A stretch of DNA of 49,681 nucleotides from Clostridia bacterium. GTDB lineage: Bacteria > Bacillota > Clostridia > Oscillospirales > Acutalibacteraceae. This document shows positions 24,642-27,933 of the stretch, piece by piece. Each line of letters begins with the position of its first letter. Within the stretch, counting starts at the first letter, position 1. The notes beneath the pieces are model-generated. The model saw nothing but the letters and a program-made list of their open reading frames with translations. It did no database searches and was not told where the DNA came from. The translations under genes were made by a program, and so were the position numbers. The stretch covers positions 1 through 49,681 of the forward strand of contig JAFQBE010000027.1 of assembly GCA_017416765.1 (NCBI GenBank), read 5' to 3'.

Positions 24642-25379
24642 TTATACTGAAATTGCCGTTTCAAGGGCAAGCTTCATCATATCTGTAAATGAGTTCTGCC
24701 GTTCTTCGGCGGTGGTTTTTTCGCCCGTTATAAGGTGGTCGGAAACAGTAAATATACCAAGCGCATTTTTGCCTGCGCGTGCTGCATTCATATAAAGTGC
24801 CGCACTTTCCATTTCAACGGCAAGAACACCCATTTTAGCCCACAGCGGTGTTGTGCGTAAGGCTATGGGTAAATCGGCATCATCGCCGTAGAAAACATCG
24901 GTTGAAAGAACATTGCCGACCTTGAAATTAAGCTGCATTTCCTTAGCCTTGTTTACACAGGGTTCAAGCAGGCTGTAGCTTGCAATCGGTGCAAAATCGC
25001 CCGGCAGATTAAACTGCTTTGCAAAGCTTGAATCGGTGCATGCACCCATGCCTATAACAACATCGCGAACCTTTACATTATCGCACATACCGCCTGCAGT
25101 ACCGACGCGGATAATATTTTCAACCCCGAAAAAGTTAAAAAGCTCATACGAGTAAATTCCGATAGAAGGCATACCCATACCGCTGCCCATAACAGAAACC
25201 GGAACGCCCTTATATTCACCTGTAAACCCAAGCATATTGCGTACTGAATTGACCTGCTTTATATTTTCAAGATAGGTTTCAGCAATGTACTTTGCACGCA
25301 AGGGGTCACCCGGCATAAGCACAGTTTTTGCAAAATCGGCAGGTACAGCATTTATATGCGGTGTCGGACAGTTTGCCAT
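24642..25379 (-). CDS. deoD: Purine-nucleoside phosphorylase DeoD
   Basis: The hexameric DeoD type is recognised by HINAVPADFAKTVLMPGDPLRAKYIA, with the phosphate-binding GDPLRA, then RVGTAGGM, the base and ribose contact AVEMESAALY, and the catalytic Asp in FTVSDHL. It cleaves purine (deoxy)nucleosides with phosphate to free base and (deoxy)ribose-1-phosphate. The start at 25379 has GGGGGAT about 8 bases upstream, within the end of deoC; the deoC stop and this ATG are one base apart, so translation is coupled. Length 245 residues, normal for DeoD (about 235). Confidence 0.95.
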   Translation of the reverse strand: MANCPTPHINAVPADFAKTVLMPGDPLRAKYIAETYLENIKQVNSVRNMLGFTGEYKGVPVSVMGSGMGMPSIGIYSYELFNFFGVENIIRVGTAGGMCDNVKVRDVVIGMGACTDSSFAKQFNLPGDFAPIASYSLLEPCVNKAKEMQLNFKVGNVLSTDVFYGDDADLPIALRTTPLWAKMGVLAVEMESAALYMNAARAGKNALGIFTVSDHLITGEKTTAEERQNSFTDMMKLALETAISV

Positions 25380-25380
25380 A

Positions 25381-26049
25381 TCAGTATCCCCCTTCAAATT
25401 TTCCTTCTTTAACTATTTTAACAATAGCGCTTGTACCAAGACGGTCAGCACCTAATTTTATAAAATCTTCTGCATCGGCAAGTGAGCGTATGCCGCCCGC
25501 AGCCTTTATTTTTTTACCGTTCGATACATTAGCAGCAAAAAGTGCAATATCCTCTTTTGTAGCACCACCTGTTGAAAAGCCCGTTGAGGTTTTGATAAAA
25601 TCGGCTTCCGATTCGCTGACAATACGGCACATGGCAACCTTTTCTTCATCGGTAAGCAGGCAGGTTTCAATAATAACCTTGAGCGTTCTTCCTGCACAGG
25701 CAACCTTTATTGCATTAATTTCATCAAGTATTTCTTCGTATCTTTTCTCTTTAAGCCAACCGACATTTATTACCATATCAATTTCATCAGCACCGTTTTT
25801 AACAGCATCTGCCGTTTCAAAAACCTTTGCAGCCGTTGTGCTGTAGCCCAAAGGGAAACCGATTACGGTACATATTTTTACTCTGCCTGCGGCATATTCA
25901 CTTGCCTGTTTTACAAAACCTGCAGGTATGCATACGCTTGCAGTTGAGTAAATTATACCGTCATCAATAATCTGCTTTATCTGCTCCCAGGTCGAATCCT
26001 GCTTTAAAAGAGTATGGTCAACCTTTGAAAGTATATCCTTTATTTCCAA
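25381..26049 (-). CDS. deoC: Deoxyribose-phosphate aldolase
   Basis: DeoC cleaves 2-deoxyribose-5-phosphate to glyceraldehyde-3-phosphate and acetaldehyde. The 222-residue protein has VDHTLLK at the N-terminus, the Schiff-base Lys in [10 protein letters not shown], and the second active-site Lys in KIKAAGGI. It precedes deoD, giving a short nucleoside salvage pathway in one operon; a mutase linking deoxyribose-1-phosphate to 5-phosphate is not in the window. Translation starts at a TTG (26049) with AAGGCGG 8 bases upstream. Confidence 0.95.
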
Positions 26050-26117
26050 AAACGAAACCGCCTTTCAACTGATATATTATTATATTACCATTATATACGG
26101 TAAAAATCAATAAAATT

Positions 26118-26148
26118 AACTGCAAATGCCGCTGTGACATTTGCAGTT
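26118..26148 (-). terminator. Terminator of the XRE-lipase gene
   Basis: AACTGCAAATG and CATTTGCAGTT form an 11-bp stem with a 9-base loop just after the stop at 26155; on the minus strand AATTTTATT follows. The plus-strand side is also followed by TTTTTT. Confidence 0.75.
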
Positions 26149-26154
26149 AGTTTT

Positions 26155-27774
26155 TTACGGTCTTTCTACCGAATCAACCAGTTTTATTAAATTGATGTAA
26201 AAATCGTGTGTCATCTGTTTGTTACCGTTCATGCCGATTACCGTGCCGTGGTCGCCTGTAAGGGTAGGCATAACATACCACTGACCGCGCTGGATTTCTT
26301 CACCACTTACATATTCGTGCGGTGTTTCATCGCTCGGGCAACGCGCGGAAACAACATTTACAAGCCCGTCATTCGGCAGCCAGCTTTCATCAATTTTAAC
26401 TGTTGCGCTGTCGCTTGTATCAGTGTAGCTGCCTATAAGCGTTGCAAGCGGCATTAATACGGGCATTGTTGCAAGTATGGGCACTTGATTGTGTGTAAGG
26501 GCTGATTTCTGTGTTGTGCTGTAGGCATAGGATATGTAACAGACCTCGTCAACCGTTTTAATTTTTTCATTGAGCTTTAAAGCACCGTCAGGCGATAAAT
26601 CGTAAAATGCATTATCCGTACCGCTGCTGAATTCGTGGTTGAGCAAATCAAGTGTGTTATTCTGACCTGAGGCTATGCCGAAATGGTCAAGCTGAAAATC
26701 AATCAGCCCACCCTGAATTGCATCGGTAACACCGCCCGCAATTTTAAGCACACCAAGCGCAGTCTGAACAAGGTTACCGTGGTCTACAACATAATAAAGC
26801 GTTGACCCGTTGTGCGGTGAACAGAGCGTAACCACGCTGTTTATATATTCGCCTTTGCCACCTGTAAAAAGCTCTGATACATCGTCGGGTGAAGCCTTGA
26901 CTTCCTCCTTGGCACCGTATTCCATAAGGCTTGCAAGCAGACGGATTGTATTGCCGCCAAAGGAATGACCGACAAGATTTATTTTGCGAAGCTGACCACC
27001 TTCGGTCTCGCTGCCCCAGCCTTCGACAATAGCTTTAGTATAGGTTCTGCCGAAGCGATCATGACCGTGCGCTTTGCTGTGCGCCGCACCGTAATCAACA
27101 GTAGTGCCGTTAAGCTGTGCGTAAAGTTCACACGCTCTGTCCCATGCGCTTGAAAACGGACCTACATTTGCTTCTGCTACCTCATAATCAAGCGACCTGA
27201 GATAAGCAGAAAGGCTGCCCGTAAAAGAACCCCAATAGGGTGAAATATCGTTTATGCCGGCGCCTTCACCCCAGCCGCCCATACCGTGTACAAGTACATA
27301 AGTATAGCCCACTGGGTCTTCCGTAAGCATAGCCCACAGCTTTTTGTAACCACCCAAGGGGATGGGAAGAATCGCTCCGAATACAAGAACAATTGCAAGT
27401 ATTGCGGCTATGGCTTTAAAATAAGCAGGCTTTTCGGTTTTTTCGTCTTGAGCCTTTTGAGGTTGCTCGATGTTTTCGGTTTCTTCTTCGGTTATATTGT
27501 TTTCTTGTGATTGTGCCGTTTCATCGCCTATAATTATTTCTTCTATTTCACTTTCTGTTTTTGCATCAGCTTCAACAGTTCTTCCCGTAAGCAGATAATC
27601 CGTACTCACTCCGAAAAGCTCGCACATTGCGACTGCCTTGTCAATATCGGGCATTACATTGCCGCTTTCCCACTTGGAAACCGACTGTCGGGAAACGCCT
27701 AACTTTTCCGCAAGCTCCTCCTGCGACATACCGCTTGCTTTGCGAAGTTCAAATATTCTTTCACCAATGTTCAT
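26155..27774 (-). CDS. XRE DNA-binding domain / membrane helix / family I.5-type lipase fusion
   Basis: The 539-residue protein joins three parts. Residues 3-61 are an XRE (HTH_3) domain with SQEELAEKLGVSRQSVSKWESG. After an acidic Gln/Glu linker (68-115), a single membrane helix spans 118-140. Residues 155-535 are a lipase domain close to the thermoalkaliphilic Geobacillus-type family I.5: oxyanion LVHGMGGWG, nucleophile Ser271 in GHSFGG, Asp469 in LPNDG, His509 in GDHG. The zinc site of that family is also complete: Asp212 (SAWDRA), His232 and His238 (AAHSKAHGH), Asp363 (QLDHFG). The predicted topology is cytoplasmic DNA-binding and extracellular lipase. I chose the ATG at 27774, 6 bases after GGGGTG. 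Known family members are secreted enzymes; here the signal peptide is replaced by the HTH and helix. Confidence 0.93.
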   Translation of the reverse strand: MNIGERIFELRKASGMSQEELAEKLGVSRQSVSKWESGNVMPDIDKAVAMCELFGVSTDYLLTGRTVEADAKTESEIEEIIIGDETAQSQENNITEEETENIEQPQKAQDEKTEKPAYFKAIAAILAIVLVFGAILPIPLGGYKKLWAMLTEDPVGYTYVLVHGMGGWGEGAGINDISPYWGSFTGSLSAYLRSLDYEVAEANVGPFSSAWDRACELYAQLNGTTVDYGAAHSKAHGHDRFGRTYTKAIVEGWGSETEGGQLRKINLVGHSFGGNTIRLLASLMEYGAKEEVKASPDDVSELFTGGKGEYINSVVTLCSPHNGSTLYYVVDHGNLVQTALGVLKIAGGVTDAIQGGLIDFQLDHFGIASGQNNTLDLLNHEFSSGTDNAFYDLSPDGALKLNEKIKTVDEVCYISYAYSTTQKSALTHNQVPILATMPVLMPLATLIGSYTDTSDSATVKIDESWLPNDGLVNVVSARCPSDETPHEYVSGEEIQRGQWYVMPTLTGDHGTVIGMNGNKQMTHDFYINLIKLVDSVERP

Positions 27775-27899
27775 AAGAACACCCCGTTCAAAGTTTTCTG
27801 TTACCATTTTACAACAGGCTTAATAAAAAGTCCAGCAAGTCGGGTTGGAATTTTAATAAAAAGCAAAAAACAAGGGTGTAAACCTGAGTTTACATATAA

Positions 27900-27933
27900 A
27901 AAAGCCTTGAAACAGCGCGGTTTCAAGGCTTTT
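27900..27933 (-). terminator. Terminator of the guaB-vanY-DUF2238 unit
   Basis: AAAAGCCTTGAAAC and GTTTCAAGGCTTTT form a 14-bp stem with a 6-base loop, with TTTTTTAT following on the minus strand. Confidence 0.9.

Follow-up and report, generated by a model that had tools for sequence, protein, structure and literature searches.

We report that a single open reading frame of a clostridial genome encodes a protein in which an XRE-type DNA-binding domain, an acidic linker, one membrane helix and a domain resembling the family I.5 zinc lipases are joined, and that the upstream region of this gene carries an operator-like pair of sites. From the sequence comparisons described below, this protein appears to be a membrane-integrated one-component regulator carrying a family-I.5-like lipase domain, and we think it rather probable that it is a surface lipase repressing its own gene, with the enzyme as the external domain of the regulator and a two-site operator of its own. 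The gene is located in a stretch of 49,681 nucleotides (the window; contig JAFQBE010000027.1 of the Clostridia bacterium assembly GCA_017416765.1). The features relevant for the following analysis are, in window coordinates:

26155..27774, minus strand: fusion gene, 539 amino acids plus stop codon (XRE HTH, acidic linker, transmembrane helix, lipase); open frame, with 45 distinct relatives in the same order, its own protein included
27577..27774, minus strand: XRE/HTH_3 domain, residues 1-66 (Pfam HTH_3 at residues 9-61)
27421..27576, minus strand: acidic, fast-changing linker, residues 67-118 (composition; family identity)
27352..27420, minus strand: single membrane helix, approximately residues 119-141, predicted N-in (hydropathy; K/R bias)
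26176..27306, minus strand: lipase domain, residues 157-533 (Lip_C, PF24708; kin of PDB entries 5ah0 and 1ku0)
27877..27894, minus strand: putative operator element A, TGTAAAC-TCAG-GTTTACA, a perfect 7-4-7 palindrome (inverted repeat; genome-unique strict motif; family conservation)
27832..27850, minus strand: putative operator element B, TTCCAACCCGACTTGCTGG, an imperfect copy of A sharing the three bases at its 3′ end with the −35 hexamer (conserved block in genus alignment)
27806..27834, minus strand: promoter-like site TGGACT-17-TAAAAT (consensus scan, 9/12)
26117..26149, minus strand: terminator-like stem after the fusion gene, 14-bp stem with a modest T tail (terminator scan)
27900..27933, no strand assigned: terminator-like stem that belongs to the upstream gene, immediately past element A (terminator scan)

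Pfam searches with the 539-residue protein detected HTH_3 at residues 9-61 (E = 6.6e-19; 68.1 bits at a cut-off of 23) and Lip_C (PF24708) at residues 158-517 (184 bits at a cut-off of 27). The recognition-helix stretch of the HTH is SRQSVSKWE (residues 28-36). Among the best 25 of 29 Pfam families, neither the winged-helix profile of ToxR/CadC nor the N-terminal sigma-binding domain of RsgI proteins was present, the N terminus being occupied by HTH_3 instead. The solved structures nearest to the protein were lipases, with 5ah0 in first place (E = 4.6e-71, residues 157-530), followed by 1ku0, 1ji3 and their kin. Hydropathy analysis showed one strong hydrophobic segment (residues 122-140, mean 2.76) between the HTH and the lipase, and lysine and arginine residues were more abundant on the N-terminal side of the membrane helix in 42 of 45 distinct fusion proteins and equally distributed in the remaining three. 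This positive-inside bias predicts a topology in which the HTH is cytoplasmic and the lipase external, the two being connected by one transmembrane helix in the same chain. The linker contained 16 acidic and 2 basic residues among the 45 residues counted, and its mean pairwise identity across the 45 fusions was 10%, compared to 63% for the HTH and 55% for the lipase. The distance between the membrane helix and the lipase is only about 15 residues.

A preliminary description of this DNA had proposed a single uninterrupted frame of 539 residues with this architecture, and the ORF, Pfam and hydropathy analyses as well as the relatives confirm it. The same description had suggested a search for the same domain order in related genomes and had named, as the result that would speak against a fusion, relatives in which the HTH and the lipase are always separate. 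The search yielded 45 distinct proteins in which they are fused. The window originates from a draft assembly of 47 contigs, which in itself might raise the suspicion that two genes had been joined by an assembly or frameshift artefact, but 45 distinct open fusions from many assemblies refute this explanation, to which we attach practically no probability. The fusion is thus real. The gene had also been credited with a terminator of its own, and the 14-bp stem at 26117-26149 matches this claim; the scan found 6 terminator-like sites in the window compared to 2.7 in shuffled sequences. Flanked by this stem and by that of the upstream gene (27900-27933), the fusion gene looks monocistronic.

The active site of the lipase domain is conserved. 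Ser271 (26962-26964), Asp469 (26368-26370) and His509 (26248-26250) align with the catalytic triad of the L1 and T1 lipases and were invariant in 45 of 45 fusions, in agreement with their previous assignment. In T1 lipase, the zinc ligands are Asp61, His81, His87 and Asp238 according to PMC6566366. The corresponding residues in the window protein are Asp212, His232, His238 and Asp387 (26614-26616), likewise invariant in all 45 fusions; the numbering was transferred from T1 by hand from the alignment, with an offset of two in the chain numbering. Three of the four zinc ligands proposed previously are therefore retained, whereas the fourth, Asp363, has to be replaced by Asp387, which is the residue aligned with Asp238 of T1 (D in 45/45) and differs from position 363, where 32 fusions have D and 13 have E. 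An active enzyme, as assumed in the preliminary description, is probable in view of the invariant triad and zinc site.

In several respects the lipase domain deviates from its known counterparts. The family I.5 lipases, such as PfL1 (5ah0) and the Geobacillus enzymes L1 and T1, share with it the Lip_C profile, the Ser/Asp/His triad and a zinc site of two Asp and two His residues (PMC12616515, PMC6566366); the structure 5ah0 is that of the Pelosinus fermentans enzyme of this family (PMC5526573). In contrast to these enzymes, the fusion protein is predicted to be membrane-anchored, and an N-terminal HTH takes the place of a signal peptide, the HTH and the linker preceding the membrane helix at approximately residues 119-141. 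The calcium ligands Glu360, Asp365 and Pro366 of T1 are not kept and correspond to T511, N516 and G517 in the window protein, although these ligands are perhaps not defining for the family. The nucleophile pentapeptide is GHSFG in 45 of 45 fusions, as opposed to Ala-x-Ser-x-Gly, which the majority of secreted Bacillus lipases have; GHSMG is known from LipJ, an enzyme assigned to family I.5 (PMC5526573).

Element A is situated approximately 100 bp before the start codon of the fusion gene, and the offset between A and B is 44 bp in the window. An alignment of the upstream regions of seven orthologues from the genus revealed A and B as two conserved blocks despite differing upstream genes, and both elements recur before most fusion genes across the family. 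The associated promoter scan gave 8 promoter-like sites compared to 3.6 in shuffled sequences. The genome to which the window belongs (2,771,420 bases) has a single match to TGTAAAN6TTTACA, located at the fusion promoter, and no match to the reversed control; this uniqueness applies to the strict motif only. Sites with one mismatch were found 28 times compared to 21 in the reversed control, which corresponds to background, and a wider regulon in this genome was therefore rejected; the nearest candidate (C2:97999) is located inside a gene.

Within the genus, the strict motif was present no more than 290 bp before the fusion gene in 7 of 8 fusion genomes. The 11 genomes of the genus contain 20 such sites, of which 7 are in fusion promoters, 3 inside the fusion gene, 2 within roughly a kilobase upstream of it, 4 in promoters of the companion gene described below and 4 elsewhere. 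In loci L009, L010 and L011 a third copy lies in codons of the linker, about 314 bp inside the fusion gene, and may reflect either shared descent or a downstream operator. When the 250-bp upstream regions of 44 distinct fusion genes were scored (all 45 except L099, whose upstream sequence was too short), element A reached at least 12/14 in 29 cases, compared to 0.2% of 4,400 Markov shuffles, 1 of 78 upstream regions of HTH-less lipases and 4 of 291 other genes of 150 or more amino acids in the same loci. Three of these four matches (L079, L080, L111) correspond to the intergenic region of the fusion gene itself, read from the divergent gene: in L079 and L080 element A is shared with that gene, and in L111 it is located between the divergent gene and the fusion, slightly beyond the 250 bp scored, at −264. 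The fourth (L081) belongs to a gene adjoining the fusion. This gene, L081:4749-5624, directly precedes the fusion, carries a separate copy of element A and codes for a secreted-looking protein of 292 residues with a DUF5104 domain (E = 5.5e-10).

In a survey of 300 genomes of the family, the 14-base palindrome was found in 7 of the 11 known fusion genomes and in 6 of the 289 others (reversed control 2/300; Fisher p = 1.3e-8 with kinship ignored). The 16 sites comprise 4 fusion promoters, 4 positions before companion genes and 8 elsewhere; in the genomes G003, G004 and G321, the sites were at companion or other genes and not at the fusion. In 38 promoters (33 fusion and 5 companion genes) with scores of at least 11/14 for A and 10/14 for B, the A-B offsets fell into three clusters of 32-36 bp (16 promoters), 41-46 bp (16) and 52-57 bp (6), which differ by about one DNA turn, the spacing that contact between two bound dimers would produce; the sequences are related, so that this spacing test as well as the Fisher values given here overstate independence.

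The presence of the operator-like sites follows that of the HTH. In three lineages with HTH-less lipases (L083; L059 and L061; L063, L017, L068 and L132), the best score for A was only 8-10/14, even when 550 bp were searched; these lineages lost HTH and operator but kept the membrane lipase. L083 is 68% identical to the window protein and has the same upstream gene as L082. In L017, L068 and L132, a different low-complexity stretch forms the cytoplasmic N terminus, and the motif [YF]APYG is common to all three. No operator was found in 500 bp upstream of L087 (SVQSVSEWE) and L015 (SCRTVSDWE), whose recognition helices are damaged or divergent. In 5 of 5 fusions with the helix SRQAVSKWE, which form one clade on the tree, the palindrome GCAAC-N5-GTTGC was present at about the place of A, compared to 0 of the 40 others, and both fusions with the helix SRQTVSKWE have a palindrome of the GGAAAC type. 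The correspondence has exceptions: 6 of 33 fusions with the standard helix (L013, L060, L064, L082, L102, L109) scored below 12 for A within 250 bp, L064/L111 having a 12/14 site at −264, and L088 and L091 kept TGTAAA-type sites despite a changed recognition helix. The comparative evidence speaks for an operator, which the XRE domain would recognize. It had been suggested before that the enzyme might be tied to its own promoter, and strong support for this comes from an operator-like pair that is conserved in the family, has no second strict copy in the genome and tracks both the presence of the HTH and its recognition helix, making autoregulation well supported at the level of sequence.

In several relatives a companion gene is associated with the same sites. 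It encodes an envelope protein of about 240 amino acids with a hydrophobic start and was recognized from four operator sites of the genus that precede such a gene. The protein matched no Pfam family above the cut-off; a PLAT/C2-like profile (PLCC) gave an E value of 0.031, which is below the cut-off. The companion gene was present in 5 of 11 genomes of the genus, all five bearing the fusion. In the survey of 300 family genomes it was found in 6, all of them belonging to the 11 fusion genomes (Fisher 4.8e-10, with just three genera represented). Among the 13 companion genes that were scored, 7 have a clean A+B promoter, 2 (L216, L252) a partial one and that of G321 has A+B about 450 bp upstream, while no operator was found at the remaining L247, L248 and L253. 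In G317 the companions L247 and L251, the latter outside the 13 scored, follow the fusion gene, and a position downstream of the fusion also holds true for L101 (about 15 bp), L108 (about 300 bp) and L095 (about 850 bp). The companion gene is absent from the genome that harbors the window, leaving the fusion gene itself as the only clear target there.

Within the genus, 8 of 11 genomes contain the fusion as an open frame, the one studied here included, with the other seven proteins 47-73% identical to that of the window, and at least 11 of the 300 family genomes contain it (G000, G003, G004, G005, G177, G193, G208, G253, G283, G317 and G321). All loci together gave 55 fusions, 45 of which were distinct. 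No fusion outside the family turned up among 394 genomes sampled from the order and 398 from the phylum; as 3 or 4 candidates per genome were scored at strict E-values, the counts of fusion genomes are lower bounds. Six matches from the phylum had signal-peptide-like starts and no HTH, and the long frames G274:C56 and G197:C36 likewise lacked an HTH. Among the best 80 matches, the named records were metagenome-assembled Clostridia, Oscillospiraceae and Ruminococcaceae, and many of their titles mention gut samples taken from sheep, goat, deer, cattle, buffalo or horse. As far as sampled, the fusions therefore appear to be confined to one family of gut Clostridia. HTH-less lipase paralogues are common, with three in the genome studied here; judged by eye, many of them begin with a signal-peptide-like or membrane segment, and some, such as L002, do not. 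A tree of 123 lipase domains was built by a quick search, with SH-aLRT as the only measure of support. On this tree, four changes account for the distribution of the fusion label, compared to a mean of 36.8 after shuffling, and one gain and three losses would give this number. No conserved operon partner accompanies all fusions, since no other gene family occurred in more than 8 of 41 loci; the greedy gene caller recovered the fusion in 39 of these and lost those of L112 and L116 to overlapping reverse frames.

These observations can be combined in the following model. The fusion would be a type II membrane protein with the XRE domain in the cytoplasm, connected via the flexible acidic linker and one helix to a family-I.5-like zinc lipase outside. 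The HTH would recognize the two-site operator of its own promoter, composed of the strong palindrome A and the weaker B at −35, and as both are on approximately the same face of the helix, two dimers may bind together. The expected effect is repression of the fusion gene and, in several relatives, also control of the companion gene, which has the same two-site promoter or lies downstream of the fusion. Repression is the likely outcome, since B reaches the −35 box, an arrangement that, judged by eye, is found in relatives too, although in the window B extends by only three bases into a promoter-like site that is itself a weak match. A site at −35 can also serve an activator, as in the case of lambda CI at PRM, and activation from A is possible. 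The lipase would be the natural entry point for a signal, be it a substrate, a lipid surface or a protein partner, and this signal may change the dimerization or the membrane clustering of the DNA-binding part such that repression is relieved. The HTH of 66 residues has no recognized dimerization domain of its own, for which reason the membrane helix or the lipase may set its dimer state, and we infer that this is a natural route for the signal. Lipid sensing by the predicted external lipase, the other option raised in the preliminary description, is plausible, and nothing in these comparisons contradicts it. A more specific version assumes that the lipase is its own sensor, i.e., that engagement or turnover of the substrate outside changes the dimer state of the XRE domain inside and thereby adjusts transcription of the protein itself and of its envelope partner independently of a kinase, a protease or a diffusible messenger; we put this version forward tentatively and consider it rather unlikely.

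Several other explanations compete with a surface lipase that transmits a signal to its own promoter. The HTH could simply cap the amount of the anchored lipase by autorepression, with the lipase never signaling. Such plain homeostasis fits the fact that the only clear operator in the genome is that of the gene itself and that three lineages lost HTH and operator and kept the membrane lipase, but a cytoplasmic repressor would achieve the same more simply and, in other genomes, the operator is also present at the companion gene, so that we regard it as a serious candidate of rather low probability. The lipase might instead act as a receptor only, binding lipid without turning it over, by analogy to the GH10 domain of RsgI6, which is described in PMC4711584 as having kept binding with very low activity. 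As a mere binder need not keep the triad and the zinc ligands, their invariance in 45 of 45 fusions makes this improbable. We assign a similarly small chance to regulated proteolysis, in which an outside signal would lead to cleavage near the membrane helix and release of the HTH into the cytoplasm. RsgI proteins use such a cascade according to PMC12203970, and the fast-changing linker would tolerate cleavage; however, the short segment between helix and lipase leaves no room for an RsgI-like autocleavage domain, and CadC finds its DNA site while still in the membrane (PMC7888679). The existence of HTH-less relatives might finally suggest that the HTH is vestigial and serves as an anchor or start segment of a surface lipase. 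This was rejected as very improbable, because the HTH is more conserved than the lipase in mean pairwise identity and the operator tracks the HTH.

Both the parts of the protein and the principle are known from other systems. PutA is a cytosolic trigger enzyme with a DNA-binding domain and is autoregulated. It resembles the fusion, for which autoregulation is predicted, in combining enzyme and DNA-binding domain in one chain, but it lacks the single-pass architecture with an external catalytic part. CadC and ToxR share with the fusion a single polypeptide composed of a cytoplasmic DNA-binding domain, one membrane helix and an external domain (PMC7888679, PMC6320335), and CadC was described as a membrane-anchored regulator that reaches its DNA site by diffusion and capture (PMC7888679). 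The fusion differs from them by having an XRE/HTH_3 domain rather than a ToxR-type winged helix, by an external enzyme domain that has kept its active site and by the predicted operator in its own promoter. RsgI6, an anti-sigma factor of Clostridium thermocellum with an external GH10 domain, is likewise a single-pass regulator with an outer sensor from a hydrolase family (PMC4711584). RsgI proteins, however, bind a sigma factor and signal by proteolysis (PMC12203970), whereas the fusion has its own DNA-binding domain and an intact lipase active site. No paper on an XRE-lipase membrane fusion was found in the open-licence literature searched, and the papers found there describe neither this combination of parts nor the predicted operator system or the companion gene.

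The fusion represents a compact case in which an outer enzyme with its active site is joined to an inner DNA-binding domain, with a predicted operator sharp enough for a laboratory test; the covariation of operator and recognition helix and the companion gene provide concrete predictions. If the model is true, it would illustrate a way in which anaerobic bacteria of the gut may couple lipolysis at the cell surface to the control of genes, and it would provide a lipid counterpart to the RsgI carbohydrate sensors as well as a ready design for a lipid biosensor. The fusion may also be a well-marked member of a neglected class, as membrane-bound XRE regulators seem to be common in the lineage. In the genome studied here (G000, L159-L188), membrane segments past the HTH were predicted for 10 of the 32 other XRE frames examined, and in an eleventh (L167) such a segment was predicted only inside the HTH. 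L160 and L171 are single-pass frames in which the helix is followed by about 130 and 190 residues, respectively. The XRE paralogue encoded by the frame at 1160 of L159 has five predicted transmembrane segments and the helix SRQAVSKWE, and its upstream promoter region contains TGCAACCGTTGGTTGACA and CTACAGTTGGTAGACGG, which are reminiscent of the GCAAC sites of the SRQAVSKWE fusions.

In the neighborhood of the fusion genes, some further observations were made, in which genes were named by reading their sequences. Nucleoside salvage genes adjoin the fusion in two arrangements. Downstream of the fusion in the window, deoC-like and phosphorylase-like genes are located at 24642-26049, and in L085, L086, L088 and L091 a phosphorylase-like gene precedes and an amidohydrolase-like gene follows the fusion. 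The segment 37001-39500 of the window, which contains three unassigned frames of 134, 266 and 337 amino acids, has a GC content of 32-36% compared to about 42-45% in its flanks and was possibly acquired.
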